Assembly: GCA_024220505.1 (NCBI GenBank)
Contig: JAKZZE010000011.1
Coordinates: 1,612,001-1,676,000 of the forward strand
Direction of reading: 5' to 3'
Source: Rhizopus arrhizus
Taxonomy: Eukaryota > Mucoromycota > Mucoromycetes > Mucorales > Rhizopodaceae
Length of the DNA stretch: 64,000 nucleotides
Below the pieces are notes generated by a model that saw nothing but the letters and a program-made list of their open reading frames with translations, had not been told where the DNA came from and did no database searches. The translations under genes were made by a program, and so were the position numbers. Each line of letters starts with the position of its first letter. Positions within the stretch are counted from its first letter, which is position 1. Of the stretch, positions 7,333 to 64,000 are shown piece after piece.

Positions 7333-7341
7333 TTTTTTTCG

Positions 7342-23563: not shown

Positions 23564-23637
23564 TGGTCACTACGAGGGTCGAACTCGCGACCTTGGCGTT
23601 ATTAGCACCACGCTCTAACCAACTGAGCTAAGCGACC
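23564..23637 (-). tRNA. tRNA-Ile(AAT), intact, at the head of the LINE array
   Basis: A complete 74-nt cloverleaf reads on the minus strand. The acceptor GGTCGCT pairs with AGTGACC (one G-U); D arm GCTC/GAGC; anticodon arm TGGTG-CTAATAA-CGCCA with anticodon AAT; T arm GCGAG-TTCGACC-CTCGT; discriminator A; no intron. Its first 15 nt plus one upstream base are the sequence duplicated at every junction of the array to the right. Because the duplicated part was restored, the gene remains whole, with internal A and B boxes intact. Its 5' flank is now transposon sequence. Confidence 0.95.
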
Positions 23638-23638
23638 A

Positions 23639-23799
23639 ACTTGCGCTTCTCTTCCACTGCTTCTACATTTTCACCTTTGATGTGTATCCGCTGGTGTTTT
23701 TTCGTTCTCTTGTTCCTTTGTCTCCGAGGTTATCACAGTTAATGATCCATTGATCGCTTGTATTTTAACCTTTATTTTAATAAAAACATAAATTTTCGA
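23639..23799 (+). mobile_element. 161-bp short element next to the tRNA (element 0)
   Basis: It lies between two target copies. Its start (acttgcgcttctcttcc) loosely resembles the LINE 5' end and its tail (ttaataaaaacataaattttcg) the LINE 3' end. The tail holds a hairpin GATC (23744-23747) with GATC (23752-23755) and an outer ACA/TGT (23735-23737, 23759-23761), at the same place as the LINE and SINE hairpins but with different bases. There is no ORF and no box A/B. It is either a non-autonomous relative or the remains of a related LINE. Confidence 0.6.
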
Positions 23800-24003
23800 C
23801 TGAGCTAAGCGACCACCTTTCTTTCGCTCTTCCGACCGTTACACAAGGTATAGTACGCGTAATCAACTTTGAACTCAAATATCTCTGCGAATACGATACA
23901 TCCATCCACCGTTTTAACACCAAAATAATCGTCGTATTTTTCTCTACAAACTATATTTTTTTCAACTCGATTGCTGTATTTTTCACCATTTTCGACATTT
24001 CCC

Positions 24004-25008
24004 ATGTCTCAACAATCTGGCTCCCCCATTTCGCTCATCTCGCAAGATGGAGTTGCAAATGTCGACATTTCTAATGTTTCCAACATTCAAAACACCTTGC
24101 AGTATTTGTTAAATACTGTTAATACTCTACAACAAGAAGTTTCGACACATGCTAGTGTCATTGCTGAACTCTCTGCTCTGCGTAGTGAAAATGCGTCTTT
24201 GAAGGCGAAAATCGCTTCGCTTGAATCACAAATCTCCGCTGGCGCTGACATCAACAGTTCTTCCGCTTTCTCCTCTTTGGTTTCCGACCCGGCATCCATA
24301 CGTGCACCCCAAGATGCACCCCAAATGAACAAAACATCCTATAGTGCTATTGCTGCCAAGGCTGCTGCTACTGCTGCTATCACCTCTCGTCGCCCACCTA
24401 GCAAGAAGCGTAAGCTTGCTGCTAGTCGTCCCTTTCAACCTGTGGATCCCTCTGCTCCTCGTGGTTTTGAATACCTGTACTTGCACAGAAACCGCAAGCT
24501 GTCCCGTGCTGAAGTTAGGCGCAACCTGCGTCTACTTGGTCTTGATCTGTCCCGTGTCCTCGACATTTGCTTCCCTGGCCCAAAGGCCATTGGTCTCTTG
24601 GTCCACGTTCAATACAAAGAAGAGGTGGTTTCTCTTCTCTCTGCTTCCAAGGTTCCGTTGGTTGACGGTTTTGATCCATTGGATCCTATCAACTTGGCGG
24701 ATCCTGAGCTCCAGCATCTCTCATCGGCTGACAAGGCTAATGAATGTGCTGAGCTTCAGTTCACTCGCTGCTCCCGTGCTCTCTCTCGTCTTGGTGCTGG
24801 CCGTGCTCACCTAGTAGGTCCCGTAGGTAAGTACTTTTCTTCCAAGGGTTGGATCGATGAGGACTCTTTGAGTCAGATTCTGTCTTCCCTTCCCCCTTCC
24901 TCTTTTGCTTCTCGTGGTCGTGACCCAGGCGCTGCTTTCCGTGGTGACACGGTCATGTCAGATGCTTTGGCCTCTGATACCGCTAGTGCTGGATCACACT
25001 CATTATGA
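24004..25008 (+). CDS. LINE ORF1, unit A: coiled coil, NLS, RRM-like
   Basis: A 334-residue protein, presumably an RNA-binding chaperone of the element RNP. The ATG at 24004 (MSQQSGSPIS) is the one conserved in all units; the frame extends upstream only through a TTG at 23971. A leucine-heptad coiled coil spans about residues 30-75 (LQYLLNTVNTLQQEVSTHAS). A Ser/Ala-rich linker ends in an SV40-like basic signal, PPSKKRKL. The C-terminal half (FEYLYLHRNRKLSRAEVRRN, SRVLDICFPG, AIGLLVHVQYKEEVVSLL) has the strand/helix order of an RRM; the fold is inferred, no search was run. A conserved tail (FASRGRDPGAAFRGD) follows. The stop TGA overlaps the ORF2 ATG. Confidence 0.85.
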   Translation: MSQQSGSPISLISQDGVANVDISNVSNIQNTLQYLLNTVNTLQQEVSTHASVIAELSALRSENASLKAKIASLESQISAGADINSSSAFSSLVSDPASIRAPQDAPQMNKTSYSAIAAKAAATAAITSRRPPSKKRKLAASRPFQPVDPSAPRGFEYLYLHRNRKLSRAEVRRNLRLLGLDLSRVLDICFPGPKAIGLLVHVQYKEEVVSLLSASKVPLVDGFDPLDPINLADPELQHLSSADKANECAELQFTRCSRALSRLGAGRAHLVGPVGKYFSSKGWIDEDSLSQILSSLPPSSFASRGRDPGAAFRGDTVMSDALASDTASAGSHSL

Positions 25009-28000
25009 GTGAGGTCCAACACCTTTCTATAAGCCTTTGGAACGCGAATGGTCTTCGGACCACGACCGTTCATGAGGTCTTGTCTCATTGTCTCTCATCT
25101 ACTCTCCTTTTCATCACCGAGACTTGGCTTCTTTCCCCTTCTCTCCTTCCTACTGACTGGATGCAGTATCATGTGTATGGTGTTCCTGTACCTTCGGCCA
25201 ACCGTGGTTCGATGGGTGTTACTGCTCTGGTCTCTCCTTCTTGTCCCTTTCCGGTCTCTCAACTTCCTTCAGCGAATCGGTATACCCTTTCGTTGAAGGT
25301 CGGACCCTTTCGCATTCATTGTTTGTATGTACCTCCTCCTCTCTCTAACTCTCAATTTATAAATGTACTCTCCTCCATTCCTTCGTTACCCAATACTTTT
25401 ATTTGTGGCGACTTTAATGCTCGTCTTGGTGACCTCACTGGTGATGCATTGGTCTCTCCTCGTGGTGCTGCTATGGCTCGCTGGCTTGCTGATCGTTCTT
25501 TGACCGTTCTGAACGGCCCACTGGCTCATGGTATTCCTACCTGGGTCGGGTTTCGTGATGATCGAGAGATGAGTAGCATCATTGACATGTTTTTAACCAA
25601 CGCGTCATTGATGTCTCCTCGCCTTGACATCGCGTCTGACTTGTCTCTTGGTTCTGATCATCGTCTACTCACGCTGTCTTTTTCATTTACTCAGTCAAGT
25701 GCCTCTGAGTCATTGTCTGATACATCTGATACCACACTACATCCTCGTCGATTATGGAACTTGTCTCGCCTTGGTGAACCTGATCCATGTCAGCTGTATC
25801 AAGATACATTTCGTTCATCTTCCGCTCCTTTGCTCTCTCAACTGAAAAGGTTGGTTCAACACCCTCCTTCTTCACGTCCACCTATTGACGACCTCAACGC
25901 GTCGCTCAACAACATAATCTACAGCTCTCTTGACTCTTCTGTCGGTGATCGTCCTCCTCGTCCTTCGCATTGGAAAAAGTACTGGACACAACAACTTCAA
26001 GATGCTGCTGATTTCCGCAACCGGTGCTACCGTAGATGGCGTCGTGCCTTTGGTATTGACAAAGTCTATTGGTGGCATCAACATCAACAAGCAAATGTTT
26101 CTTTCCGTCAAGCTGTGGCCAATGCCAAGCGTCTATCCTGGCAAGCATTCTGCAAGTCTCTTGAGTCTGACTTTACTAAAGCCATTTCAAAAGTAAAGCA
26201 ACTCAATCGACGACATCAGTCATCCTCATCGTTCTCACATCCTGATGGTCCGTCAAAGGCAGTGGAGGTAATGGCTAGTCACTTGGCTTCGGTCTTTGAT
26301 GGCAGTCTTCTACCTTCCACTCGCCCATCACCTCCTCCATCTTCATCCTCTCTTGGTTTGCCTCTTGGTCTCCATGGTTCGTCTCCTTCCGGTTCGTCTC
26401 CCTCTGGTTCCTCTGGTCCTACTGGTTCAAGTCACTCTTTGTTCACTCCTTTAACTATTCACATGTACATCGGTCAGCTCCCTACTCGTAAAGCTCCTGG
26501 TGCTGATCACATCAAGGCCGAGATGCTCAAGCCGATCAGTACTGACCTCTCCCACTTGCTGTCTTGGTTTTTTTCCTTGTGCTGTCAATGGTCTTACGTT
26601 CCTTCTCTCTGGCGGCATGCTCAAGTCTATCCGATCTTCAAGAAAGGTGATCCTTCGCTGCCGTCCAATTATCGACCGATCTCACTGACCTCGGTGTTCA
26701 GAAAGCTCCTTGAGCTTAGTCTCGCTCCATGGTTGTCTTCTGTCTCTCCTCCCCTTGACCTCGCTCAAGGTGGTTTCCGTCCTCGTCGCTCAGCTCTTGA
26801 TCAAGCCCTATGCCTTCATGAGCTGATGCAGTCTTACTATCGTCGATCTCATCGTTTTCCTGTGGTTGCATTCCTGGATATCAAGTCGGCCTACGATACC
26901 GTCGACCGGCGTGTTATCTGGGATGCTCTCTCTCGCTCTGGTGCTGGTTCCTCTCCTTGTTTGCCTCTCTTGGTCCATCTCTTTGATGATGTCTCGGTGT
27001 CTGTCTTGGTGTCCAATCACTCGTCCACTCCTTTTTCTCCTGTCACCGGTGTCTTGCAAGGTTCTGTTCTCAGTCCTCACTTGTACTCGGTGTACATCAA
27101 TACATTACCTGCTCTCCTTCGTCAAGTCGCTGCTCCTGCCACTCATTTGGTTCCCTCCTCTGGTCGCCCCGATGCTGGTATGGTCCCAGTCAACTCTCTC
27201 CTCTTTGCTGATGATGTCGCAGTCATTGGCTCGGCAAAGTCAGTCAAAGAGATGCTCAAGCTCTGTGAGGATCACTCGTTGTCTCTTGGATATCGCTGGA
27301 ATCCTCTGAAGTGTGCGGTGCTCAACCACCCCACTTCCTCTTCATCGTCATCTGGTTCAACCCAACTAAGCCTCTATGGTACCTCTCTGCCTTTGGTCGA
27401 CAAGTTCGTATACCTTGGTATGCCTTTCGTCAAGACTGGTCTCTCTGCTGCTTCGGTGCTTTCTCTTCGTTCTCCTGGTGTGCTTCAACTAATGGGTATT
27501 CTCAACAAGATTGGCGTGAATCGTCAAGGCTTTTCTCTGCTCCTGTGTGCTCGCATCTATGCCACATTTGTCCGTCCAAAGTTCGAATATGGTCTCGCCA
27601 TTTCCAAATTTTCTGCTGCTCAAGTGAAAGAAATTGAACGTCTTCAAGATCGCTGCCTTCGTATGATGGTAGGTGGTCATGCCACTTCTTCCACCACTAT
27701 CATCAAGCATCTCACTACCTTGCCGTCTATGCATCACCGCATAGATGTGCTTACAACTCGTTTCTGCCTTCGTGCCCGCTCTCTTCCTGGTTCTTGCCTG
27801 CTGTCTCTGCTATCAACCACGCTACCTGTCTCACGTATCAAGGTCCATCTTGACAAGAATCCGCTCTTCTTGGCTTTGCCTTCTCCTCCTCCGTCCTCCG
27901 ATGCTCGGCTCAAGACCTTCTTTCGCCAGTATCGTGAGCGTCAACTCACTTCACTCGTCACCTCCACTACCCAGGTTCTCCTACGCGCATGTCGCCCTGC

Positions 28001-28388
28001 TCTGGTGGTTGATCCCATCTTATACGTTCCTGCAACCCGTGCAGAACGCTCTCTCTTGGTTCGTTGGCGTCTTGGCTGGCTGCCAGGTAAGCCTGAAGAT
28101 TGTCCTTGTGGCCGTGATCGTCGTTCTCGTCGCCACTTCTTAGAATGCGATCTTATACCTTCGTTCCTTTGGTCTGATCTGCCTCGCTGTCCTCCTGGGT
28201 GCTATCCCATTGACTTTGCTCTTTCCTCGTTGCCTCTTGGTCGCTCAGCTCGCTGTCCTCCTTGGTGGTCATCACTCCTATTGATGCTTTCGCATATCCA
28301 ACGTCTCTGTCGTCCTGATAGGAATCTTCCTATTGACTCTTCTCCTGGTGCCTTATGGTATTCTCGTTCTTCTCGTCACCCTGACTGA
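25005..28388 (+). CDS. LINE ORF2, unit A: AP endonuclease, reverse transcriptase, CCHC
   Basis: A 1127-residue protein that would nick the tRNA target and reverse-transcribe element RNA from the nick. The start ATG at 25005 overlaps the ORF1 stop. The endonuclease spans residues 1-230: WNANG (12-16), ITETW (37-41), GDFNAR (135-140), SDH (217-219). A variable Ser/Pro linker lies near 410-480. The reverse transcriptase spans about 488-790: APGADHIKAE, YRPISLTS, FLDIKSAYD, GVLQGSVLSPHLY, and the active site FADD (734-737). A C-terminal finger CPCG...HFLEC (C-x-C-x8-H-x3-C) lies about 80 residues from the end. No RNase H domain is apparent. The domain order places it among APE-type non-LTR elements. 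No stops. Confidence 0.93.
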   Translation: MSEVQHLSISLWNANGLRTTTVHEVLSHCLSSTLLFITETWLLSPSLLPTDWMQYHVYGVPVPSANRGSMGVTALVSPSCPFPVSQLPSANRYTLSLKVGPFRIHCLYVPPPLSNSQFINVLSSIPSLPNTFICGDFNARLGDLTGDALVSPRGAAMARWLADRSLTVLNGPLAHGIPTWVGFRDDREMSSIIDMFLTNASLMSPRLDIASDLSLGSDHRLLTLSFSFTQSSASESLSDTSDTTLHPRRLWNLSRLGEPDPCQLYQDTFRSSSAPLLSQLKRLVQHPPSSRPPIDDLNASLNNIIYSSLDSSVGDRPPRPSHWKKYWTQQLQDAADFRNRCYRRWRRAFGIDKVYWWHQHQQANVSFRQAVANAKRLSWQAFCKSLESDFTKAISKVKQLNRRHQSSSSFSHPDGPSKAVEVMASHLASVFDGSLLPSTRPSPPPSSSSLGLPLGLHGSSPSGSSPSGSSGPTGSSHSLFTPLTIHMYIGQLPTRKAPGADHIKAEMLKPISTDLSHLLSWFFSLCCQWSYVPSLWRHAQVYPIFKKGDPSLPSNYRPISLTSVFRKLLELSLAPWLSSVSPPLDLAQGGFRPRRSALDQALCLHELMQSYYRRSHRFPVVAFLDIKSAYDTVDRRVIWDALSRSGAGSSPCLPLLVHLFDDVSVSVLVSNHSSTPFSPVTGVLQGSVLSPHLYSVYINTLPALLRQVAAPATHLVPSSGRPDAGMVPVNSLLFADDVAVIGSAKSVKEMLKLCEDHSLSLGYRWNPLKCAVLNHPTSSSSSSGSTQLSLYGTSLPLVDKFVYLGMPFVKTGLSAASVLSLRSPGVLQLMGILNKIGVNRQGFSLLLCARIYATFVRPKFEYGLAISKFSAAQVKEIERLQDRCLRMMVGGHATSSTTIIKHLTTLPSMHHRIDVLTTRFCLRARSLPGSCLLSLLSTTLPVSRIKVHLDKNPLFLALPSPPPSSDARLKTFFRQYRERQLTSLVTSTTQVLLRACRPALVVDPILYVPATRAERSLLVRWRLGWLPGKPEDCPCGRDRRSRRHFLECDLIPSFLWSDLPRCPPGCYPIDFALSSLPLGRSARCPPWWSSLLLMLSHIQRLCRPDRNLPIDSSPGALWYSRSSRHPD

Positions 28389-28589
28389 AACCCTTCTTTG
28401 TCTGTCTCCTGCTGATCCCCCACGGAAGTAAAGCCATCAAAGTTCCTTACCGTTGGGTTGTGACAGTAGGTCAGCTAAGTTGTGGAAGTAAGCTGCCATT
28501 CTCATCTTTTTCTTTATCTTTTTTTTTGGAGTTTTTCTGTTTCTCAGGCTCCTTTTTTTGTACTTATTCTTTTTCTTTGTACTGGAAGA

Positions 28590-28617
28590 TGCAATAATGA
28601 CTTTTTAGTCGCCTGCA
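28590..28617 (+). other. Conserved 3' UTR hairpin of the LINE (unit A example)
   Basis: TGCA (28590-28593) pairs with TGCA (28614-28617), and GACT (28599-28602) with AGTC (28607-28610), loop TTTT. The same sequence occurs in units B to H. In the SINE copies the inner stem is GATT/AATC, a compensated change. It is the likely recognition structure for the ORF2 protein (inference). Confidence 0.7.
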
Positions 28618-28676
28618 ATATATCTTCGTTATTTAATAAAAACAAAATCTTTAACCTGAGCTAAGCGACCAGGTAT

Positions 28677-28750
28677 GTGGAGATAGTGCAAATGGTTAGA
28701 GCGTCTGCCTATCATTCGGGAGGTTGCATGTTCAACCCCTCGTATCCGCA
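28677..28750 (+). other. tRNA-like head of SINE copy 1
   Basis: The acceptor gtggaga pairs with tatccgc at six of seven positions. The D arm and an anticodon arm with the loop CTATCAT (anticodon ATC, Asp-like) can be drawn. The T stem (gcatg/cctcg) is largely unpaired. Box A is at 28684-28695 and box B at 28730-28738. It is degenerate for a working tRNA but suitable as a polymerase III promoter. Confidence 0.55.
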
Positions 28751-29117
28751 TATCTACCCTTTCCGCACTCTAACTGCATGTTCTGTTTCCGCGGTGCTTT
28801 AAGCACTGAATGATTTTGTCTTGCGTGTCGCGTTGAGCGGCAGCTTTGTATCTGTTCGCCTTCCTTCCCTCCATTGTTGTTTGGTGTTGTGCCGCTTGAT
28901 AACACCTGGTTTTAATGCCACAAGTTGCTTCGGTGGTATGAGGTGTTTGTTGATCGTTGTCTGTGCGTTGCCTGGATTCCCAGCCCCGGGATTAAAGAAG
29001 CACCGTTCTGTCTCTGCCTCAAGTCTTCGTCTATGGTTTCTGCTTCAAGATTGTAATTCGCTCCTTCCCCCATTCCCCCCTAATAACTTGTATGCTTTCC
29101 AGGATGTTCCTGTGGAT

Positions 29118-29145
29118 TGCAATAATGATTTGTTAATCGCCTGCA
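29118..29145 (+). other. 3' hairpin of SINE copy 1
   Basis: TGCA (29118-29121) with TGCA (29142-29145); GATT (29127-29130) with AATC (29135-29138). It is positioned as in the LINE, with a C:G to T:A exchange in the stem. Confidence 0.7.
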
Positions 29146-29389
29146 TATAATCCAATAAAATATAAAAATCTTTAACCTGAGCTAAGCGACCACCTTTCTT
29201 TCGCTCTTCCGACCGTTACACAAGGTAGACGACGCGTAATCAACTTTGAACCCGATTATCTCACCCAATACTATACATCCATCAACCGTTTTACTATCAA
29301 AAAATTCGCCTAATTTTTCTCTACAAGATATATTTTTTTCAAGTTCATAACTCCTTTTCTTGCAATTTTCGACATCTTCGACATTACCC

Positions 29390-30376
29390 ATGTCAACTAA
29401 TCCCGGTCTTAACATTTCACCCATCTCAACAGATGGCGTTGCAAATGTCGACATTTCCAATATTCCAAATATTCAAGAAACTTTACACTATTTGTTAAAC
29501 ACCGTTACTGCACTACAACAAGAAGTTTCGACACATGCTAGTGTCATTGCTGAACTTTCTGCTCTGCGCACTGAAAATGCGTCTTTAAAATCCAAAATTG
29601 CGACTTTAGAAGCGCAATTGGCTTCATCTTCTTCTCCTTCTGTCGCTTCTGCTGTTTCTGCCTCTGTTCCTGCTGCTAAACCAACTTCTTTGGCTGCACA
29701 AAATGTTTCGCCTGCTGTCCAAGCTACATACTCTGCTGTTGCTGCTCGTCCTGCTGTTCGTTCTCCATCTAAAAAGCGCAAATTGGCTGCTAGTCGCGCT
29801 TTCCAACCCATTGATCCCGATGCCCCACGCGGTTTTAAATACTTGTATCTCAATCGCAATCGTAAGTTAACTCGCTCTGAGATTCGAAGAAATCTTCGCT
29901 TGCTTGGTCTGGACTTGTCTCGTGTCCTCGATGTCTGTTTCCCTGGCCCCAAGGCTATTGGTCTTTTGGTCCATGTTCAGTATGTGCCAGAGGTGATCTC
30001 TCTGCTCGCTACTGCAAAGGTTCCGTTGGTTGACGGTTTTGATCCCCTGGATCCCGTCAACTTGGCTGATCCTGAGCTTCAGCACCTCTCCCTATCTGCA
30101 AAGGCGGATAAGTGTGCTGAACTTCACTACTCCCGCTGTTGTCGTGCTCTTTCTCGTCTTGGTGCTGGTCGTCCCCATTTGGTCGCCCCAGTAGGTAAGT
30201 ATTTCTCTTCCCATGGCTGGATCGATGACGACTCCTTGAGTCAGATTCTTTCTGAGCTTCCCCCCTCCTCTTTTGCTTCTCGTGGTCGTGACCCAGGCGC
30301 TGCTTTCCGTGGTGACACGGTCATGTCAGATGCTTTGGTCTCTGATTCCGCTAGTGCTGGATCACACTCATTATGA
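29390..30376 (+). CDS. LINE ORF1, unit B (second subtype)
   Basis: 328 residues from the ATG at 29390 (MSTNPGLNIS); the upstream extension uses a TTG. The coiled coil (LHYLLNTVTALQQEVSTHAS), the PSKKRKL signal and the RRM-like half are as in unit A. The linker is Ala/Ser/Val-rich and differs from the first subtype. By eye it differs from unit D's ORF1 by one residue (V or A before SDSAS near the end). Confidence 0.85.
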   Translation: MSTNPGLNISPISTDGVANVDISNIPNIQETLHYLLNTVTALQQEVSTHASVIAELSALRTENASLKSKIATLEAQLASSSSPSVASAVSASVPAAKPTSLAAQNVSPAVQATYSAVAARPAVRSPSKKRKLAASRAFQPIDPDAPRGFKYLYLNRNRKLTRSEIRRNLRLLGLDLSRVLDVCFPGPKAIGLLVHVQYVPEVISLLATAKVPLVDGFDPLDPVNLADPELQHLSLSAKADKCAELHYSRCCRALSRLGAGRPHLVAPVGKYFSSHGWIDDDSLSQILSELPPSSFASRGRDPGAAFRGDTVMSDALVSDSASAGSHSL

Positions 30377-30695
30377 GTGAGGTCCAACACCTTTCTATAA
30401 GCCTTTGGAACGCGAATGGTCTTCGGACCACGACCGTTCATGAGGTCTTGTCTCATTGTCTCTCCTCTACTCTCCTTTTCATCACCGAGACTTGGCTTCT
30501 TTCCCCTTCGCTCCTTCCTACTGACTGGATGCAGTATCATGTGTATGGTGTTCCTGTACCTTCGGCCAACCGTGGTTCGATGGGTGTTACTGCTCTGGTC
30601 TCTCCTTCTTGTCCCTTTCCTGTCTCTCAACTTCCTTCACCGAATCGGTATACCCTTTCGTTGAAGGTCGGACCCTTTCGCATTCATTGTTTGTA

Positions 30696-30909
30696 CAGTG
30701 GTTGGAATAATTGTTCGGATGTTTTGCAATTTTATACTTTTCGCTTTGTATCTCTGCAATCAGATAGGATAGAGCTACTTACAATACCTCATTAGAAAGC
30801 AACAGTTGTCATGTATAACATATAGAAATTTAAGGTTATGGGATTACTTCCATATATAGTAAGGTCAAATTGCGTCAAGCATATGCATTCGAACAATTTT
30901 TCCAACTCA
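30696..30909 (+). repeat. Left terminal inverted repeat of Tc1-e
   Basis: Matches 32131-32342 inverted. It contains ATACCTCATTAGAAAGC (30784-30800), also found in Tc1-b's repeat in slightly changed form. Confidence 0.85.
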
Positions 30910-31084
30910 ATGCATTCTATAATGATGATATCATTGGCGTTTCTGACGTCACAAATACAGCATTACAAAATGACGTAATAATGAAATAGCGCTTTTGCTT
31001 TTAGTCAGAGCTTAAAATATATAAATAAGGCTGGATTTTGCAGTGTTTCCCTTCTATCTTGTACAGCCTATACTTCTTTATATC

Positions 31085-32116
31085 ATGGTACACCTTTTAT
31101 CTCGTAGCAAGCAAGAAAGCATCCGGTCGTTGTTGAAAAAGGGTTTATCATACTCAGAAATCATGAAACGAGTTCCAGGAGTATCAAGGTCCACTTTGAG
31201 CAAGTACAAGAACTTGTATGCACCTAAACGTACTCGAGGTCATGCTGGTAGAAAGACTACTATAAGCTCAACGACAAAGAATTACTTGAAGAGAGAACTT
31301 ATAAATGGTTCACTTCAAACAGCAAAGAGCGTATGGTCATATTTAAACAGTATTGGCTATAAGATAGGCTATTTTGGTACAGTAAAAATGCTTCACAACA
31401 TGGGTTTCAGTACCCAAATTAAGAAGAAAAAACCTCTCCTCAAAAAATCACACATGGAAGCTAGACTAAAATGGGCTAAAGCTCACAAAGATTGGACAGA
31501 AGATGACTGGAGGCGTATGGTGTTCTCTGATGAGACCAAGATTAATGTTTGGGGCTCGGATGGTTGTAAATACTTTTGGAGAAGACCTGGTGACAAATTA
31601 CAACTTCATGATCTTGACCTTACAGTCAAAGGAGGAGCTGGCAGTGTGATGCTTTGGGGTTGTATGACATGGGATGGTCCTGGATATGCCTGCGCAATTG
31701 AGGACGGTACTATGAAGGCATCAGATTATGTTCATATCCTGTCAACTACACTGATGGACAGTCTGAACTACTATGGCTACAAGCAGGAGGCTATCTATTT
31801 TCAACAAGATAACGATCCTAAGCACACATTGAAGCTTTCTCGTGCTTGGTTTAAAGAAAATGCGTTTAAAGAAGAGCACACCTTCAATTGGCCAGCTCAA
31901 AGTCCTGATTTGAATCCTATAGAGCATCTCTGGCACCATCTAAAGTTGAGACTGAGTTTGTACGAAGGTAGGGCTAAAGGAGTGCATGATCTCTCGTCTA
32001 GAACCGAGAAAGAATGGAACTCTTTTACCAGAGAGCAATGCCAAGCATATATCAAGAGTATGCCAGCTCGTTGTAGAGCAGTCATTAAAGCTAAAGGCGG
32101 TTATACACGATATTAA
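31085..32116 (+). CDS. Tc1-like transposase, DD37E
   Basis: 343 residues from the ATG at 31085 (MVHLLSRSKQ); the longer frame to 31043 starts with GTG. The helix-turn-helix region is LSYSEIMKRVPGVSRSTLSK, followed by a GRKTTIS hook and a second DNA-binding part. The DDE residues are D in VFSDETKINVW, D in YFQQDNDPKH and E in SPDLNPIEHLW, 37 residues apart. It is uninterrupted and closely similar to the transposases of Tc1-a and Tc1-d. It acts on Tc1-e termini. Confidence 0.93.
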   Translation: MVHLLSRSKQESIRSLLKKGLSYSEIMKRVPGVSRSTLSKYKNLYAPKRTRGHAGRKTTISSTTKNYLKRELINGSLQTAKSVWSYLNSIGYKIGYFGTVKMLHNMGFSTQIKKKKPLLKKSHMEARLKWAKAHKDWTEDDWRRMVFSDETKINVWGSDGCKYFWRRPGDKLQLHDLDLTVKGGAGSVMLWGCMTWDGPGYACAIEDGTMKASDYVHILSTTLMDSLNYYGYKQEAIYFQQDNDPKHTLKLSRAWFKENAFKEEHTFNWPAQSPDLNPIEHLWHHLKLRLSLYEGRAKGVHDLSSRTEKEWNSFTREQCQAYIKSMPARCRAVIKAKGGYTRY

Positions 32117-32130
32117 ATAAAAGATGATTC

Positions 32131-32342
32131 AGTTGGAAAAATTGTTCGAATGCATATGCTTGACGCAATTTGACCTTACTATATATGGAAGTAATCCCAT
32201 AACCTTAAATTTTTATATGTTATACATGACAACTGTTGCTTTCTAATGAGGTATTGTAAGTAGCTCTATCCTATCTGATTGCAGAGATACAAAGCGAAAA
32301 GTATAAAATTGCAAAACATCCGAACAATTATTCCAACAACTG
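32131..32342 (-). repeat. Right terminal inverted repeat of Tc1-e
   Basis: Partner of 30696-30909. The inner motif is at 32133-32152 and the outer at 32317-32336. Confidence 0.85.
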
Positions 32343-50014: not shown

Positions 50015-50298
50015 AACCCTTCTTTGTCTGTCTCCTGCTGATCCCCCACGGAAGTAAAGCCATCAAAGTTCCTTGCCGTTGGGTTGTGACAGTAGGTCAG
50101 CTAAGTTGTGGAAGTAGGCAGTCAATCTCATCTTTTTACTTTATCTTTTTTTTTTGGAGTTTTTCTGTTTCTCAGGCTCCTTTTTTTGTACTTATTCTTT
50201 TTCTTTGTACTGGAAGATGCAATAATGACTTTTTAGTCGCCTGCAATATATCTTCGTTATTTAATAAAAACAAAATCTTTAACCTGAGCTAAGCGACC

Positions 50299-52647: not shown

Positions 52648-52849
52648 CTGAGCTAAGCGACCCCTTTTTTCGCTCTTCCGACCGTTACACAAGGTATAGT
52701 ACGCGTAATCAACTTTGAACCCAAATATCTCTGCGAATACGATACATCCATCCACCGTTTTAACACCAAAATAATCGTCGTATTTTTCTCTACAAACTAT
52801 ATTTTTTTCAACTCGATTGCTGTATTTTTCACCATTTTCGACATTTCCC

Positions 52850-56800: not shown

Positions 56801-57248
56801 GTCAAGTCATCACTCTCGTCACCTCCACTACCCAGGTTCTCTTACGCGCATGTCCCCTGCTCTGGTGGTTGATCCCATCTTATACGTTCCTGCAACCCGT
56901 GCAGAACGCTCTCTCTTGGTTCGTTGGCGTCTTGGTTGGTTACCAGGTAAGCCTGAAGACTGTCCTTGTGGACGTGATCGTCGTTCCCGTCGCCACTTTC
57001 TTGAGTGCGATTTGATACCGTCTTTCCTCTGGTCTGATCTGCCTCGCTGTCCTCCTGGGTCTTATCCCATTGACTTTGCTCTTTCCTCGTTGCCTCTTGG
57101 CCGTTCAGCTCGCAGTCCTCCTTGGTGGTCTTCTCTTCTGTTAATGCTCTGGCATATTCAACGTCTCTGCCGTCCTGATGGCTTCTATGCTATTGACTCT
57201 TCTCCTGGTGCCTCTTGGTATTCTAGTGCTTCTCGTAACTCTGACTGA
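53857..57248 (+). pseudogene. LINE ORF2, unit G, frameshifted before the zinc finger
   Basis: Endonuclease and reverse transcriptase are open (53857 to about 56853). A base is missing in tgtcccctgc (56851-56860) compared with tgtcgccctgc in other units. The zinc-finger end continues in another frame to 57248; the actual frame runs to 57015 with unrelated residues. The protein would keep its enzymes but lose the CCHC finger. Confidence 0.9.
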
Positions 57249-57719
57249 AACCCTTCTTTGTCTGTCTCCTGCTGATCCCCCACGGAAGTAAAGCCATCAA
57301 AGTTCCTTACCGTTGGGTTGTGACAGTAGGTCAGCTAAGTTGTGGAAGTAGGCAGTCAATCTGATCTTTTGCTTTGTCTTTTTTTTGGAGTTTTTCTGTT
57401 TCTCAGGCTCCTTTTTTTGTACCTTATTCTTTTTTCTTTGTACTTGAAGATGCAATAATGACTTTTTAGTCGCCTGCAATATATCTTCGTTATTTAATAA
57501 AAACAAAATCTTTAACCTGAGCTAAGCGACCACCTTTCTTTCGCTCTTCCGACCGTTACACAAGGTATTTATTTTTGCTCATCTTTGAACTCGATTTTCA
57601 ACACCAATACGATACATTCATCCACCATTTTAACACCAAAAAACGCGCCTTATTTTTCTCTACAATATATATTTTTTTCAGTCCGAAAGCTCTTATTTTA
57701 AATATTTTAGACATCACCC

Positions 57720-58705
57720 ATGTCCCAACATTTCACCCCTGCTAATTTGCAGATGTCGCCAAATGCCGTTGCAAATGTCGACATGTCGAACCCAAATGAC
57801 ATTTCAAATGTTTTCAAATACCTTCTGAATACTGTTAACACGCTTCAAGAACGTGTTACGACTCACGACGACATTTTAAACGAATTGTCAACATTGCGTA
57901 ATGAAAATGCAACATTAAAGGCCGAGATTGCTAATCTCCATGCCCAATTGAAATCAGCTTCCGCCAAATTGTCAACTGCCACTGCTTCCAATGTTGCCTC
58001 CTCCTCTACCATAGTTGATAATCCTGCTAACCAAGCTTCCAATGTCTCTGTGCCTACCTACAGTGCTGTTGCTGCCCGTTCTGTTTCAAAACCGGTAACC
58101 AAAAAAGAAAACTTGCTGCTGGCCGTACTTTCATGCCTGTTGACCCCTCTGCTCCTCGTGGGTTCGAGTACTTGTACTTGAATCGTAAACGTAAACTCAC
58201 CCGTGCTGAAGTCAGACGCAATCTGCGTTTACTTGGTTTTGATCTCTCTCGTGTCTTGGACATCTGCTTCCCTGGCCCTAAGGTCATTGGCCTTTTGGTG
58301 CATGTTCTCTACAAAGAAGAGGTGATCTCTCTTCTCGCTGCTGCCAAGGTTCCGTTGGTTGACGGTTTTGATCCTCTGGATCCTATCAACTTGGCGGATC
58401 CTGAGCTCCAGCATCTTTCATCGGCTGACAAGGCTAATGAATGTGCTGAGCTTCAGTTCACTCGCTGCTCCCGTGCTCTCTCTCGTCTTGGTGCTGGCCG
58501 TGCTCATCTAGTGGGTCCCGTAGGTAAGTACTTTTGTTCCAAGGGTTGGCTTGATGACGACTCTTTGAGTCAGATTCTGTCTTCCCTTCCCCCTTCCTCT
58601 TTTGCTTCTCGTGGTCGAGATCCAGGCGCTGCTTTCCGTGGTGACACGGTCATGTCAGATGCTTTGGTCTCTGATTCCGCTAGTGCTGGATCACACTCAT
58701 TATGA
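57720..58705 (+). pseudogene. LINE ORF1, unit H, frameshifted in an A run
   Basis: ATG at 57720. The coiled-coil part (VFKYLLNTVNTLQERVTTHD) belongs to a third subtype. In ccaaaaaagaaaac (58099-58112) one A appears missing, so the basic signal reads KKENLLL and the frame stops at 58181. The RRM-like half (MPVDPSAPRGFEYLYLNRKR) follows in another frame to 58705. Slippage on the A run could in principle restore some product. Confidence 0.85.
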
Positions 58706-61700
58706 GTGAGGTCCAACACCTTTCTATAAGCCTTTGGAACGCGAATGGTCTTCGGACCACGACCGTTCATGAGGTCTTGTCTCATTGTCTCTCCTCTACT
58801 CTCCTTTTCATCACCGAGACTTGGCTTCTTTCCCCTTCTCTTCTTCCTACTGACTGGATGCAGTATCATGTGTATGGTGTGCCTGTACCTTCGGCCAACC
58901 GTGGTTCGATGGGTGTTACTGCTCTGGTCTCTCCTTCTTGTCCCTTTCCTGTCTCTCAACTTCCTTCACCGAATCGGTATACCCTTTCGTTGAAGGTTGG
59001 ACCCTTTCGCATTCATTGTTTGTATGTTCCTCCTCCTCTTTCCAACTCTGAATTCATTGATGTACTTTCCTCCATCCCTTCTCTTCCCAATTCTTTTATC
59101 TGTGGCGACTTTAATGCTCGTCTTGGTGACCTCACTGGTGATGCATTGGTCTCTCCTCGTGGTGCTGCTATGGCTCGCTGGCTTGCTGATCGCTCTTTGA
59201 CCGTTCTGAACGGCCCACTGGCTCATGGTATTCCTACCTGGGTCGGGTTTCGTGATGATCGAGAGATGAGTAGCATCATTGACATGTTTTTAACAAACGC
59301 GTCATTGATGTCTCCTCGCCTTGACATCGCGTCTGACTTGTCTCTTGGTTCTGACCATCGTCTACTTACGCTGTCATTTTCTTTTGCTCCGTCAAGTGCC
59401 TCTGAGTCATTATCTGATACACCTGATGCTACTATTCATCCTCGTCGACTATGGAACTTGTCTCGCCTTGGTGAACCTGATCCATGTCAACTCTATCAAG
59501 ATACCTTTCGTACGTCCTCTGCTCCATTGCTTTCTCAACTGAAAAGGTTGGTTCAACACCCTCCTTCTTCACGTCCGCCTATTGACGACCTCAACGCGTC
59601 GCTCAACAACATTATCTACCGCTCTCTTGACTCTTCTGTCGGTGATCGTCCTCCTCGTCCATCCCATTGGAAAAAGTACTGGACACAACAACTTCAAGAT
59701 GCTGCTGATTTCCGCAACAGATGTTACCGTAGATGGCGTCGTGCCTTTGGTATTGACAAAGTCTATTGGTGGCATCAACATCAACAAGCGAATACCTCCT
59801 TTCGTCAAGCTGTGGCTAATGCCAAACGTCTCTCTTGGCAAGCGTTCTGCAAGTCCCTTGAGTCTGACTTTACTAAAGCCATATCCAAAGTAAAGCAGCT
59901 CAAACATCGCCACCTCACATCATCCTCATTCTCTCATCCTGATGGTCCGGCTACGGCAGTGGAAATAATGGCTCGTCACTTGGCTTCTGTCTATGATGGT
60001 CACTTGCTTCCATCTGTCCGTCCGCCTGCTCCTCCTGATCCGTCTTCTCTTGGTTTGCCCTTTGGTCCTCCTGGTTCGTCTCCTTTGGTTGTCTCTTCTG
60101 GTGCTGCTGCTCAAATTCTTACATCTACTGCTCATTCCGCTCATTTCAACACTTCAATATTCTCGCCTGCAACATTGGCTTCACTTATCGGTCAACTGCC
60201 TACGCGCAAAGCTCCTGGTGCTGATCATATCAAGGCCGAGATGCTCAAGCCGATCAGTACTGACCTGTCGTTCATTCTTTCCTGGTTCTTCACTCTATGC
60301 TGGCAATGGTCCTATGTTCCTTCTCTCTGGCGACATGCTCAAGTATACCCTATCTTCAAGAAAGGTGATTCATCACTTCCCTCAAACTACCGTCCGATCT
60401 CACTCACATCAATATTCCGCAAGCTACTTGAGCTGTCGCTGTCTCCATGGTTGTCCTCTGTCTCTCCTCCTCTTGACCTTGCTCAAGGTGGTTTCCGTCC
60501 TCGTCGGTCTGCTCTGGATCAGGCTCTATGCCTACATGAACTGATACAATCGTACTACCGTCGCTCCCATCGGTTTCCTGTGGTGGCATTCCTGGATATC
60601 AAGTCGGCCTACGATACCGTCGACCGGCGAGTTATCTGGGATGCTCTCTCTCGCTCTGGTGCGTCAAGTCCGTTCCTGTCTCTCTTGGTCCATCTGTTTG
60701 ATGATGTCTCGGTGTCTGTCTTGGTGTCCAATCACTCGTCCGCTCCTTTCTCTCCTGTCACCGGTGTCTTGCAAGGTTCTGTTCTCAGTCCTCACTTGTA
60801 CTCGGTGTACATCAACACTCTACCCTCCTTACTTCGTCAAGTCGCTGCTCCTGCCACCCATTTGGTTCCCTCCTCTGGTCGCTCCGATGCTGGTATGGTC
60901 CCAGTGAACTCTCTCCTCTTTGCTGACGATGTCGCAGTCATTGGCTCGGCAAAGTCAGTCAAAGAGATGCTCAAGCTATGTGAACAACATTCGCTGTCTC
61001 TGGGTTATCGATGGAACCCTACAAAATGTGCGGTGCTCAACCACCCACCATCATCTTCTTCCTCGTCCGATCGCCTCCAGTTATATGATACTCCTCTGCC
61101 TTTGGTGGATGACTTCGTATATCTTGGAGTGCCCTTCGTCAAGTCTGGTCTCTCTGCTCCCTCTTTGGTTTCTCTCCGGTCTCCTGGTGTCATCAAGGTT
61201 ATGGCTATCCTGAACAAGATTGGTGTCAATCGTCAAGGTTTCTCTCTTTTGCTCTGCTCACGCATCTATGCCACCTTTGTTCGCCCGAAGTTTGAGTATG
61301 GCCTAGCCATATCTCGGCTGACGGCAACTGATCTCAAGTCTATTGAAAGCTTACAAGATCGCTGTCTCCGTCTCTTGGTTGGTGGCCATCGTACCTCTTC
61401 TACTACGATTATCAAGCACATTACAACACTGCCATCTATGCGCCACCGCATAGATGTGCTTATCACTCGCTACTGTCTACGTGTTCGTTCTCTTCCTGGT
61501 TCTTGCCTGCTGTCTCTACTTTCGTCAACGCTTCCAGTATCTCGCATCAAGGTTCATCTTCAAAAGAATCCGCTTTTCTTGGCTTTGCCTTCTCCTCCTC
61601 CGTCCTCCGATGCTCGGCTCAAGACCTTCTTCCGCCAGTATCGTGAGCGTCAAGTCATCTCTCTCGCCACCTCCACTACTCAGGTTCTCCTACGCGCATG

Positions 61701-62097
61701 TCGCCCTGCTCTGGTGGTTGATCCCATCTTATACGTTCCTGCTACTCGTGCAGAACGCTCTCTCTTGGTTCGTTGGCGTCTTGGCTGGCTGCCAGGTAAG
61801 CCTGAAGATTGTCCGTGTGGCCGTGATCGTCGCTCTCGTCGTCACTTCCTCGAGTGTGATCTGATCCCGTCTTTCCTTTGGTCTGACCTTCCTCGCTGTC
61901 CTCCTGGGTCTTACCCTATAGACTTTGCTCTTTCCTCGTTGCCTCTTGGTCGCTCAGCTCGCTGTCCTCCTTGGTGGTCATCTCTCTTGTTGATGCTCTG
62001 GCATATACAACGTCTGTGCCGTCCTGATAGCTTCTATGCTATTGACTCTTCTCCTGGTGCCTCTTGGTATTCTCGCTCTTCTCATAACTCTGACTGA
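58702..62097 (+). CDS. LINE ORF2, unit H
   Basis: 1131 residues, uninterrupted. It has a type 2 linker (SVRPPAPPDPSSLGLPFGPP) and a type 2 reverse transcriptase end. Endonuclease motifs, FADD and the CPCG...HFLEC finger are present. Because its own ORF1 is broken, it would need ORF1 protein from another unit. Confidence 0.92.
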   Translation: MSEVQHLSISLWNANGLRTTTVHEVLSHCLSSTLLFITETWLLSPSLLPTDWMQYHVYGVPVPSANRGSMGVTALVSPSCPFPVSQLPSPNRYTLSLKVGPFRIHCLYVPPPLSNSEFIDVLSSIPSLPNSFICGDFNARLGDLTGDALVSPRGAAMARWLADRSLTVLNGPLAHGIPTWVGFRDDREMSSIIDMFLTNASLMSPRLDIASDLSLGSDHRLLTLSFSFAPSSASESLSDTPDATIHPRRLWNLSRLGEPDPCQLYQDTFRTSSAPLLSQLKRLVQHPPSSRPPIDDLNASLNNIIYRSLDSSVGDRPPRPSHWKKYWTQQLQDAADFRNRCYRRWRRAFGIDKVYWWHQHQQANTSFRQAVANAKRLSWQAFCKSLESDFTKAISKVKQLKHRHLTSSSFSHPDGPATAVEIMARHLASVYDGHLLPSVRPPAPPDPSSLGLPFGPPGSSPLVVSSGAAAQILTSTAHSAHFNTSIFSPATLASLIGQLPTRKAPGADHIKAEMLKPISTDLSFILSWFFTLCWQWSYVPSLWRHAQVYPIFKKGDSSLPSNYRPISLTSIFRKLLELSLSPWLSSVSPPLDLAQGGFRPRRSALDQALCLHELIQSYYRRSHRFPVVAFLDIKSAYDTVDRRVIWDALSRSGASSPFLSLLVHLFDDVSVSVLVSNHSSAPFSPVTGVLQGSVLSPHLYSVYINTLPSLLRQVAAPATHLVPSSGRSDAGMVPVNSLLFADDVAVIGSAKSVKEMLKLCEQHSLSLGYRWNPTKCAVLNHPPSSSSSSDRLQLYDTPLPLVDDFVYLGVPFVKSGLSAPSLVSLRSPGVIKVMAILNKIGVNRQGFSLLLCSRIYATFVRPKFEYGLAISRLTATDLKSIESLQDRCLRLLVGGHRTSSTTIIKHITTLPSMRHRIDVLITRYCLRVRSLPGSCLLSLLSSTLPVSRIKVHLQKNPLFLALPSPPPSSDARLKTFFRQYRERQVISLATSTTQVLLRACRPALVVDPILYVPATRAERSLLVRWRLGWLPGKPEDCPCGRDRRSRRHFLECDLIPSFLWSDLPRCPPGSYPIDFALSSLPLGRSARCPPWWSSLLLMLWHIQRLCRPDSFYAIDSSPGASWYSRSSHNSD

Positions 62098-62381
62098 AAC
62101 CCTTCTTTGCCTGTCTCCTGCTGATCCCCCACGGAAGTAAAGCCATCAAAGTTCCTTACCGTTGGGCTGTGACAGTAGGTCAGCTAAGTTGTGGAAGTAG
62201 GCAGTCAATCTCATCTTTTTTCTCTATCTTTTTTTTGGAGTTTTTCTGTTTCTCAGGCTCCTTTTTTTGTATCTTATTCTCTTTTTTTGTACATGAAGAT
62301 GCAATAATGACTTTTTAGTCGCCTGCAATATATCTTCGTTATTTAATAAAAACAAAATCTTTAACCTGAGCTAAGCGACCA

Positions 62382-62886
62382 GGTATGTGGAGATAGTGCA
62401 AATGGTTAGAGCGTCTGTCTATCATTCGGGAGGTTGCAAGTTCAACCCCTCGTATCCGCATATCTACCCTTTCCGCACTCTAACTGCATGTTCTGTTTCC
62501 GCGGTGCTTTAAGCGCTGAATGATTTTGTCTTGTGTGTCGCGTTAAGCGGCAGCTTTGTATCTGTTCGCCTTCCTTCCCTCCATTGTTGTTTGGTGTTGT
62601 GCCGCTTGATAACACCTGGTTTTAATGCCACAAGTTGCTTCGGTGGTGTGAGGTGTTTGTTGATCGTTGTCTGTGCGTTGCCTGGATTCCCAGCCCCGGG
62701 ATTAAAGAAGCACCGTACTGTCTCTGCCTCAAGTCTTCGTCTATGGTTTCTGCTTCCAGATCATAATTCGCTCCTTCCCCCATTCCCCCTTAATAACTTG
62801 TATGCTTTCCAGGATGTTCCTGTGGATTGCAATAATGATTCTTAATCGCCTGCATATAATCCAATAAAAATATAAAAATCTTTAAA
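62382..62886 (+). mobile_element. SINE-like element with tRNA-like head, copy 2
   Basis: 505 bp, the same length as copy 1 and about 97-98% similar by eye. It starts ggtatgtggagatagtgc and ends AATAAAAATATAAAAATCTTTAA before the target. Box A is at 62394-62405 and box B at 62440-62448. The tail hairpin GATT (62837-62840) with AATC (62844-62847) has a 3-nt loop here instead of 4. Confidence 0.82.
62387..62460 (+). other. tRNA-like head of SINE copy 2
   Basis: Same arrangement as 28677-28750. It differs by a few bases (gtctgtct for gtctgcct, gcaag for gcatg). A and B boxes are unchanged. Confidence 0.55.
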
Positions 62887-62902
62887 CTGAGCTAAGCGAC
62901 CA

Positions 62903-64000
62903 CCTTTCTTTCGCTCTTCCGACCGTTACACAAGGTATAGTACGCGTAATCAAATTTGAACTCAAATATCTCTGCGAATACGATACATCCATCCACCGTT
63001 TTAACACCAAAATAATCGTCGTATTTTTCTCTACAAACTATATTTTTTTCAACTCGATTGCTCTATTTTTCATCATTTTCGACATTTCCCATGTCTCAAC
63101 AATCTGGCTCCCCCATTTCGCTCATCTCGCAAGATGGAGTGGCAAATGTCAACATTCCAAACCCTTCTGACATGCAACAAGCTTTGCAATATCTATTGCA
63201 CAACTTCCAAACCCTCCAGCAACGTGTTTCAACACACGATGACGTATTTGCTGAACTGACTGCTTTACGCAGTGAAAATGCTACTTTGAAGGCGAAAATC
63301 GCCTCACTCGAATCTCAACTTTCCGCTGGTGCTGACGTCAACAGTTCTTCCGCTTTCTCCTCTTTGGCTTCCGACCCGGTTACCATACGTGCACCCCAAG
63401 ATGCACCCCAAACGAACAATGCAACCTATAGTTCTATTGCTGCCAAGGCTGCTGCTACTACTGCTACTACCACCCGTCGCCCACCTAGCAAGAAGCGAAA
63501 GCTTGCTGCTAGTCGCCCATTCCAACCAGTTGACCCTTCTGCTCCTCGTGGTTTTGAATACCTGTACCTGCATAGAAACCGCAAGCTGTCCCGTGCTGAA
63601 ATTAGACGCAACCTGCGTTTACTTGGTCTTGATCTTTCCCGTGTCTTGGACATCTGCTTTCCTGGCCCAAAGGCCATTGGTCTCCTGATTCATGTTCTTT
63701 ACAAAGAAGAGGTGATCTCTCTTCTTTCTGCTGCCAAGGTTCCGTTGGTTGACGGTTTTGATCCTCTGGATCCTGTCAACTTGGCTGATCCTGAGCTCCA
63801 GCATCTTTCATCGGCTGACAAGGCTAATGAATGTGCTGAGCTCCAGTTCACTCGCTGCTCCCGTGCTCTCTCTCGTCTTGGTGCTGGCCGTGCTCATCTG
63901 GTGGGTCCCGTAGGTAAGTACTTTTCTTCTAAGGGATGGATCGATGACGACTCCTTGAGTCAGATTCTGTCTTCCCTTCCCCCTTCCTCTTTTGCTTCTC
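62903..64000 (+). mobile_element. LINE unit I, cut by the window edge
   Basis: Starts after the target copy at 62887 with the standard 5' end, first subtype leader. Only the leader and most of ORF1 are inside the window. Confidence 0.92.
63091..64000 (+). CDS. LINE ORF1, unit I (partial)
   Basis: ATG at 63091, open to the window edge. Coiled coil of the unit C type (VNIPNPSDMQQALQYLLHNF), PPSKKRKL signal, and RRM-like half. The last visible residues are in the LPPSSFAS tail, so about 30 residues are missing. Confidence 0.83.
   Translation, partial: MSQQSGSPISLISQDGVANVNIPNPSDMQQALQYLLHNFQTLQQRVSTHDDVFAELTALRSENATLKAKIASLESQLSAGADVNSSSAFSSLASDPVTIRAPQDAPQTNNATYSSIAAKAAATTATTTRRPPSKKRKLAASRPFQPVDPSAPRGFEYLYLHRNRKLSRAEIRRNLRLLGLDLSRVLDICFPGPKAIGLLIHVLYKEEVISLLSAAKVPLVDGFDPLDPVNLADPELQHLSSADKANECAELQFTRCSRALSRLGAGRAHLVGPVGKYFSSKGWIDDDSLSQILSSLPPSSFAS

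Follow-up and report, generated by a model that had tools for sequence, protein, structure and literature searches.

We describe an array of retrotransposons that lies beside a transfer RNA gene of the fungus Rhizopus arrhizus and that very probably grew by repeated insertion at one site near the start of that gene. The window analysed is the whole stretch of 64,000 nucleotides (nt) taken from contig JAKZZE010000011.1 of assembly GCA_024220505.1 (C3:1612001-1676000, with contigs given as C and a number), in a genome of 50,257,186 bases on 41 contigs. ARAGORN and Rfam identify a tRNA-Ile(AAT) gene at 23563-23638 on the minus strand, and no second tRNA gene in the window. The sequence of this gene is complete, and we regard it as the insertion target. 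Next to it stand long interspersed nuclear elements (LINEs) and short interspersed nuclear elements (SINEs) in an unbroken, head-to-tail series, all on the plus strand. From the gene outward the order is a LINE-B fragment, a LINE-A unit, a SINE1, seven LINE-A units, a second SINE1 and a ninth LINE-A unit that reaches the window end. Read between junctions, these are the nine LINE units, two SINEs, one short element and 11 junctions that an earlier note on this DNA had counted, in the single orientation that it had given; the short element can now be identified as the 3' end of a second family, LINE-B. The same note had the array following the tRNA gene, but because that gene is on the minus strand, the array lies upstream of it, on the 5' side.

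The 15-mer CTGAGCTAAGCGACC, which is tRNA nt 1-15 in reverse complement, is present without mismatch at every one of the 11 junctions (23800-23814, 28656-28670, 29177-29191, 35690-35704, 40578-40592, 45426-45440, 50284-50298, 52648-52662, 57517-57531, 62366-62380 and 62887-62901, all on the plus strand). The window has 12 exact copies in all, the twelfth being within the tRNA gene itself (23623-23637). If up to three mismatches are allowed, there are 18 matches against a shuffle mean of 0.97, and the six inexact ones lie on the minus strand within the second open reading frame (ORF2) of LINEs. The earlier note had described a tRNA copy of 15-16 nt at each junction; a 15-mer is indeed shared, but the true target duplication is 14 nt long, as set out below. 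It corresponds to tRNA nt 1-14, which read TGAGCTAAGCGACC on the plus strand at 23624-23637, and this stretch is duplicated with each insertion.

The element adjoining the gene is a 5'-truncated LINE-B copy comprising the 3' terminal 162 nt (23638-23799, ending in AAATTTTCGA). LINE-A unit 1 (23815-28655) is full length and ends in ATCTTTAAC. Its ORF1 (24004-25008) encodes 334 amino acids (aa), and its ORF2 (25005-28388), which starts within an ATGA overlap with ORF1, encodes 1,127 aa with an endonuclease resembling apurinic/apyrimidinic endonuclease (APE), a reverse transcriptase and a CCHC-like cysteine motif. The 3' tail of this unit (28585-28655) holds a two-part stem-loop, GAAGATGCA...TGCAATATATCTTC enclosing GACTTTTTAGTC, and has a fixed end. 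The first SINE1 copy (28671-29176) joins a tRNA-like head to a LINE-like tail and, as is true of the second copy (62381-62886), is 506 nt long. LINE-A unit 2 (29192-35689) is interrupted by a Tc1-like element (30694-32344, plus strand) with 218-nt inverted repeats and a DDE_3 transposase at 31043-32116. The ORF2 frame is broken in unit 3 (35705-40577) and intact in units 4 (40593-45425; ORF2 at 41774-45157) and 5 (45441-50283; ORF2 at 46631-50014). Unit 6 (50299-52647) is 5'-truncated to 2,349 nt, and units 7 (52663-57516) and 8 (57532-62365) have ORF2 frames of 1,052 aa (53857-57015) and 1,131 aa (58702-62097), respectively. Only the start of unit 9 (62902-64000) falls within the window; the whole unit, C3:1674902-1682446, measures 7,545 nt with an insertion.

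The LINE-A ORF2 protein matches the Pfam families RVT_1 (3.1e-21) and Exo_endo_phos_2 (2.6e-10). When a profile of 16 ORF2 sequences is compared with solved structures, human L1 ORF2p scores best (2.7e-39, positions 5-763), followed by R2 (2.5e-25). Residues E39, D136, D194 and H219 and the ADD of the reverse transcriptase are invariant across the 16 sequences and, by analogy with L1, would be the catalytic residues. ORF2 combines an N-terminal APE/EEP endonuclease with a reverse transcriptase of the type that lacks long terminal repeats (non-LTR), and this combination is what distinguishes an APE-type LINE. Matches to ORF2 were scored for 41 of 1,190 candidates genome-wide, so the number of LINE families found to use the same target is a lower bound; none of the 41 has stops, and 32 extend over the full 1,127 aa. 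The closest ORF2 proteins include those of R. arrhizus, R. delemar and R. stolonifer, with identities up to 96%, and all ORF1 relatives that bear names are from Rhizopus. No LINE relatives were found in viral contigs, and contigs of bacterial and archaeal genomes gave only three weak reverse transcriptase matches (26-30% identity), in metagenome-assembled genomes. For comparison with the L1-like ORF1 type, which pairs a coiled coil with an RRM, an AlphaFold2 model of ORF1 was made; it is of low confidence (mean pLDDT 51.7) and suggests a coiled coil, a helix at 25-78 and a beta-alpha-beta-beta-alpha arrangement at 155-215.

The earlier note had proposed repeated site-specific insertion at the tRNA sequence and had suggested a genome search for the LINE 3' end, naming two outcomes that would speak against the idea: many copies with unrelated 3' flanks, or a single array amplified as satellite. 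Neither was found, and the proposal is supported. When one mismatch is allowed, ATCTTTAAC is no rarer in the window than chance predicts (28 matches against 21.8 expected; the nine that are exact are all junction ends), and the longer AAAATCTTTAAC was therefore used for genome counts. It occurs 144 times, against 58 for the reversed control. CTGAG follows in 96 of these 144 copies and ATGAG in 14 more, compared with none in the controls, whereas the remaining 34 are no more than the 58 reversed-control matches; the excess over background is thus due to the TGAG-flanked ends. Among the 96 CTGAG-flanked copies, 72 continue as the tRNA-Ile 15-mer, 19 as its tRNA-Ala counterpart and five otherwise. 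The exact tRNA-Ile 15-mer has 95 copies in the 50.3 Mb (reversed control, 0), made up of nine complete tRNA-Ile gene 5' ends, the 72 copies after exact AAAATCTTTAAC and 14 other junctions, nine of which were read and are preceded by the LINE-B end or by slightly altered tails.

A second set, blind to the junctions, was obtained by searching for the 3' hairpin, which gave 102 matches against 1 for the reversed control. Among the 100 listed, the Ile 15-mer stands 40-75 nt further on in 74, the Ala 15-mer in 10 and neither in 16. Thirteen of these 16 were classed, the other three being two on C37 and one on C38. Of the 13, four carry other tRNA-like 15-mers (loci L040, L050 and L051, and C24:280726), two carry diverged tRNA-like letters (L053, L055), two are probably the interrupted tails of Ile units (C3:1679695 and C12:24264) and two have no element tail (L041, L057); the remaining three are considered below. 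Nearly all copies thus lie at one site of a multicopy gene.

The tRNA-Ala(AGC) genes reveal where exactly that site lies. With one mismatch allowed, the Ala 15-mer has 57 matches in the genome. Twenty read CTGAGCTACATCCCC and are all element junctions; 11 read TTGAGCTACATCCCC and are precisely the 11 tRNA-Ala genes; 24 read CTGAGCTACATCCAC (...CATCCAC), which are letters of the SINE2 head, mostly on the strand opposite to the junctions and read in part; and two read CTCAGCTACATCCCC (CTCAGC...). No junction with a first base other than C is present among the 57, and none start with A or G. All 11 genes therefore read TTGAGC... where all 20 junctions read CTGAGC..., so that the C is contributed by the end of the element (ATCTTTAACC), which leaves TGAGCTACATCCCC as the duplication, 14 nt long and ending at tRNA nt 1. 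This boundary is masked in tRNA-Ile because the gene itself has C there. On C22 and C11 (tRNA-Ala), where both gene and junction were read, the letters past the 14-mer differ, as they likewise do at tRNA-Lys on C2. Three other notions were rejected: a duplication of 15 or 16 nt is ruled out by the gene and junction comparison at tRNA-Ala, the supposition that CTGAGCTACATCCCC lacks a tRNA gene in the genome overlooked the T that the gene has in place of the junction's C, and a restriction to tRNA-Ile is ruled out by junctions at other tRNA genes. In naming tRNA-Ile as the target, the earlier note was correct but too narrow, as tRNA-Ala(AGC), tRNA-Lys(TTT) and tRNA-Met(CAT) are used as well, and by more than one LINE family. 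These targets have the core of box A in common, with the letters TGAGCTA or TGAGCCA. On the tRNA-sense strand the 3' junctions follow tRNA nt 14 exactly, and in tRNA numbering we take the first nick to fall after A14 and the second cut at or adjoining nt 1.

Most genes of the two main target types are occupied. There are nine identical full-length tRNA-Ile(AAT) genes and a tenth that matches from nt 8 onward (an 85% relative is called tRNA-Val(TAC)); eight of the 10 have upstream junctions on the expected strand and two are empty. The 11 tRNA-Ala(AGC) genes are all identical, and 10 have upstream junctions. A junction was assigned if it lay upstream of a matching tRNA gene, within 100 kb and on the expected strand. 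By this rule, 75 of the 86 Ile 15-mers outside complete genes belong to the eight occupied tRNA-Ile genes, at distances of up to 87 kb with the far arrays only partly read through, and 19 of 20 Ala junctions lie upstream of a matching tRNA-Ala gene. Both empty tRNA-Ile genes lie on C25 and have plain sequence upstream. One of them shares 82% identity over 159 nt of its 3' flank with the occupied gene on C9, and by this likeness the two are evidently an empty and a filled relative. The complete tRNA sequence is kept in nine of 10 Ile genes and in all 11 Ala genes. Since nt 1-14 are duplicated, the gene usually keeps its sequence and would keep its internal promoter, and with 18 of 21 Ile(AAT) and Ala(AGC) genes colonised, most of them probably take their upstream flank from retrotransposons.

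Two further LINE families use the same site. LINE-B, whose fragment adjoins the tRNA-Ile gene of the window, is represented on C18 by a 1,311-nt copy with an ORF2 piece 49% identical to LINE-A. LINE-C, with an ORF2 piece 46% identical to LINE-A, is about 5.3 kb long and was read at tRNA-Lys(TTT) and tRNA-Met(CAT) genes. It ends in ATCTTTAACA, and the base preceding the shared 14-mer is A in its junctions but C in the gene, as read at tRNA-Lys(TTT) on C9 and C2 and at tRNA-Met(CAT) on C12. For six of 14 LINE-C termini, a tRNA gene on the expected strand starts 5,307-5,316 nt away, against an expectation of 0.005. The copies (loci L083-L088 and L094) are at C9:1130445-1135850, C2:469446-474841, C12:1482489-1493567, C23:928524-933921, C37:1325521-1330917 and C3:1546779-1552179; the one on C12 has a second terminus 10,990 nt from the gene and is apparently two copies in tandem.

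SINE1 and SINE2 share with LINE-A not only the tail and its 3' stem-loop but also the tRNA target, and their heads contain box-A- and box-B-like letters, as read by eye. Six tails folded singly all give the two-part stem-loop, and the LINE-C tail has a similar shape. Among 11 chosen tails, double-sided changes are found in three of eight consensus pairs; the outer stem rests on the single folds because MAFFT left it unaligned.

Given these observations, we put at roughly nine in ten the probability that LINE-A, LINE-B and LINE-C, together with SINE1 and SINE2, constitute a site-specific, APE-type non-LTR retrotransposon system that targets box A of tRNA genes, judging from the sequences at hand. 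Target duplications, a fixed 3' end and 5' truncation, all present here, are the signature of target-primed reverse transcription. In the mechanism that we propose, the LINE-A endonuclease would nick the tRNA-sense strand after A14 (..TAGCTCA^), and the freed 3' end would serve as the primer from which an RNA, held by its 3' stem-loop, is reverse-transcribed. The other strand would be cut at the tRNA start. The duplication would then return nt 1-14 beside the rest of the gene, so that sequence and internal promoter are kept, only what lies upstream is altered, and a further insertion can use the target. As this recurs, head-to-tail arrays would arise, probably with the youngest unit next to the tRNA.

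Several observations weigh against this interpretation or limit it. In the orientation control, four of 20 Ala and eight of 86 Ile junctions also have a same-strand gene no more than 100 kb away. Twelve of the 106 Ile and Ala junctions have no matching gene in place; 11 of these (10 Ile, 1 Ala) are near contig ends, with the gene expected beyond the end, and the other, an Ile junction at C41:1968292 beyond a tRNA-Ala junction, is not accounted for. Three of the 16 hairpins without an Ile or Ala 15-mer (L049, L054, L058) carry only CTGA or CTGAG in surroundings that are not tRNA-like. The tRNA-Ile gene at C18:837327-837393 is missing 3 nt at a LINE junction, and ARAGORN no longer recognises it; restoration is thus sometimes inexact. 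Gene and junction share 14 nt at tRNA-Lys on C2 but 14-15 nt at tRNA-Lys on C9 and 14-16 nt at tRNA-Met. Folded as single sequences, the tails score little better than shuffled ones (z -1.0 to -2.1). Finally, the array at C14:1061001-1080079 contains units of the window array in unchanged order, and the tRNA 3' flanks are 98.4% identical (1.5-kb flank). By this evidence the C3 and C14 arrays are evidently a duplicated locus or alternative haplotypes in the assembly, and as copies of one locus they reduce the eight Ile arrays to at most seven independent ones.

Two side observations may be added. On C41 (positions 1963427 and 1968292; L059 and L070), the next LINE past a tRNA-Ala gene and its Ala junction ends at the Ile 15-mer, while CGACCGACC comes directly after the Ala junction that precedes this Ile-flanked LINE; such mixed junctions might reflect exchange between arrays or carried-over target letters. 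In addition, a repeat with TGGTACAGTTTGATTGAAAAAATTTC (window 23406-23431; L025:511, L034:1223, L079:437, L080:578) is present on the 3' side, within about 200 bp, of the C3, C9 and C14 tRNA-Ile genes and of two tRNA-Ala genes, and is perhaps another tRNA-associated element.

How the site is found could be explained differently. Contact with the RNA polymerase III (Pol III) machinery, as for TRE5-A and Ty3, might lead the element to its target, with the position of the complex setting the base. That the site is common to several tRNA types fits such contact, as does a probable CACTA-type DNA transposon: among its 26 listed ends, 16 stand at 54-59 bp from the same motif, a hint that Pol III genes can be reached as targets. 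We nevertheless consider this route unlikely, if far from negligible, as the insertion position is base-exact with no window, a few insertions at CTGA or CTGAG apparently lie outside tRNA genes, and what the targets have in common is the bases of box A. Somewhat more doubtful still is the proposal that pairing between RNA and primer provides the exactness, in which a read-through 15-mer would pair with the nicked strand and the endonuclease would be only loosely specific for CTGA(G). In the arrays read, a 15-mer does stand behind each unit, so read-through RNA would carry it, and the rare off-target insertions do keep only CTGA or CTGAG; but the C of the Ala junctions, where the gene has T, implies that the element's last base was copied up to the nick.

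The manner in which the arrays grew can be examined in seven stretches (two each on C3 and C12, one each on C9, C14 and C18) that contain 49 units with both junctions in 197,824 bases. These are 31 LINE-A units with a full or near-full 5' end, one strongly truncated LINE-A, six SINE1, eight SINE2 and three LINE-B. Eight of the 31 carry nested insertions, as judged by length. The SINE2 units were classed by head; one is truncated, two have insertions and one (C9:1176316) has a SINE1-like tail. Among the 32 LINE-A units with both junctions, only one is strongly truncated; 3' ends are fixed and 5' ends variable. Twenty-three LINE-A units of 4.6-4.95 kb were aligned, and two on C14, whose array is a copy of the C3 locus, were excluded from the comparison of arrays. 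Identity averages 89.1% within arrays (35 pairs) and 89.5% between them (175 pairs), which indicates growth by insertion, not duplication. Only three of 21 units have their nearest relative in their own array (permutation mean, 3.55), and adjacent units have a mean identity of 88.1% (10 pairs). Satellite-like tandem amplification of a LINE with its 15-nt junction by unequal crossing over would account for the regular head-to-tail order and for the block of units shared in the same order by C3 and C14, but it is highly improbable and largely contradicted by the comparison of arrays, given that nearest relatives lie elsewhere for 18 of 21 units, that the arrays mix four element families, differing 5' ends and a truncated unit, and that the C3/C14 identity runs through the tRNA 3' flank, as in a whole-locus copy.

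Four LINE-A units in four arrays are 99.5-99.9% identical, which evidently reflects recent spread; unit 4 of the window is 99.5-99.6% identical to units of three other arrays. An ORF of at least 1,120 aa is kept in 13 of the 23 aligned units.

Other mobile elements accompany the arrays. The probable CACTA-type transposon mentioned above has terminal CACTGCAAATAAT or CACTGCACCCAAT; on C12, two such ends enclose a Transposase_21 frame (L032:1027-1836). It was seen at L020:3720-6410, from L031:8848 to about L033:2665, at L036:5854, and at L040, L044, L045, L048, L060, L062-L065, L067, L068, L084 and L089, most loci having been chosen for LINE or SINE ends. The 16 ends at 54-59 bp are measured from tRNA starts or the tRNA-start motif. 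One of them is 54 bp upstream of an intact tRNA-Lys (L089), and for another (L020) the tRNA-like head of a SINE2 is the reference, 57 bp away. The transposon was also seen 56 bp upstream of a tRNA-Val (L019, by eye). The element thus seems to insert about 56 bp upstream of tRNA starts, as would a DNA transposon that selects Pol III genes and keeps a constant distance from them. Stubs in the arrays that consist of the motif and 56 bp would be former complete tRNA gene starts, displaced outward by later LINEs and SINEs, and they lend indirect support to growth with the youngest unit next to the gene. Elsewhere in the window are a Ty3-like LTR retrotransposon (7043-13371) with LTRs of about 291 bp that are 99% identical and a 1,913-aa ORF with a chromodomain, and Tc1-like transposase frames at 662-1648 and 4132-5343, in addition to 31043-32116 within LINE-A unit 2.

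With somewhat less assurance, we think it likely that this is a group of APE-type LINEs, of at least three families (46-49% identical over ORF2 pieces), that has kept the box A site, cuts after A14 and at the gene start, rebuilds the tRNA gene and has colonised 18 of the 21 Ile(AAT) and Ala(AGC) genes. If so, a LINE can live in an essential gene without removing it, as the duplication is the very piece that insertion would cut off. The group would also provide a natural set of endonucleases that apparently recognise a short conserved sequence of many tRNA genes, and site-specific APE-type endonuclease and reverse transcriptase proteins may be of interest for targeted gene insertion in the laboratory. 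The activity of tRNA genes after full replacement of the upstream flank, and the order of units in an array as a record of insertion, become accessible to experiment.

For the R. oryzae assembly, Ma et al. 2009 (PMC2699053) put the share of LINEs at 3.78% and report that Ty3-like elements are often found together with tRNA genes; LINE targeting is not mentioned in the parts of the main text covered. Neither an APE-type LINE inside tRNA genes nor LINE targeting in Rhizopus was found in the mostly open-access literature searched, and a name in Repbase is possible. In that literature, LINEs within tRNA genes are restriction-type, and APE-type ones lie near tRNA genes, not in them; the present elements add an APE-type lineage to the few that insert inside.

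LINE-A resembles R1, Tx1 and Keno in joining an APE-type endonuclease to a reverse transcriptase and in using one exact site in a multicopy RNA gene. It differs in having box A of several tRNA genes as its target and a duplication that restores the gene sequence, and the likeness is one of domains and target use. The R1 and Tx1 clades are among the sequence-specific non-LTR groups with an APE-like endonuclease, and Keno is found at U2 genes (PMC4640811). The same source describes tRNA-specific LINEs related to NeSL, namely NeSL-1_TV (tRNA-Pro), LIN15_SM (tRNA-Arg) and LIN25_SM (tRNA-Glu); these share the specificity for tRNA genes but have a restriction-like endonuclease, whereas LINE-A has an N-terminal APE-like domain (no search was aimed at a C-terminal restriction-like one). 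One family of Utopia, which targets U2 snRNA genes, is reported to stand in tandem in its target genes on occasion (PMC4640811), as in the LINE-A arrays, but again with a restriction-like endonuclease. The Dada DNA transposons of Perkinsus (Dada-tIA, -tIB and -tY) insert in the tRNA A box at TAGCTC (PMC3706591), which makes ours the second case of box A as a target. They have a DDE transposase and 6-7 bp duplications, in contrast to a LINE with a 14-nt duplication, which falls outside the Dada group. Partnerships of LINEs and SINEs with a shared 3' tail have been named (PMC10886601); SINE1 and SINE2 additionally share the tRNA target. The four non-LTR entries listed in PMC5911963 are all dictyostelid and all beside tRNA genes. 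They are TRE5, TRE3, NLTR-A and NLTR-B, an APE domain being stated for the TRE elements, and their windows are 40-54 bp or 2-6 bp upstream, or 40-150 bp downstream, of the tRNA gene (PMC5911963, PMC5006619). Thus, the dictyostelid elements are also tRNA-associated LINEs, but whereas they insert within windows outside the gene, LINE-A inserts at a single base inside it, after tRNA nt 14.

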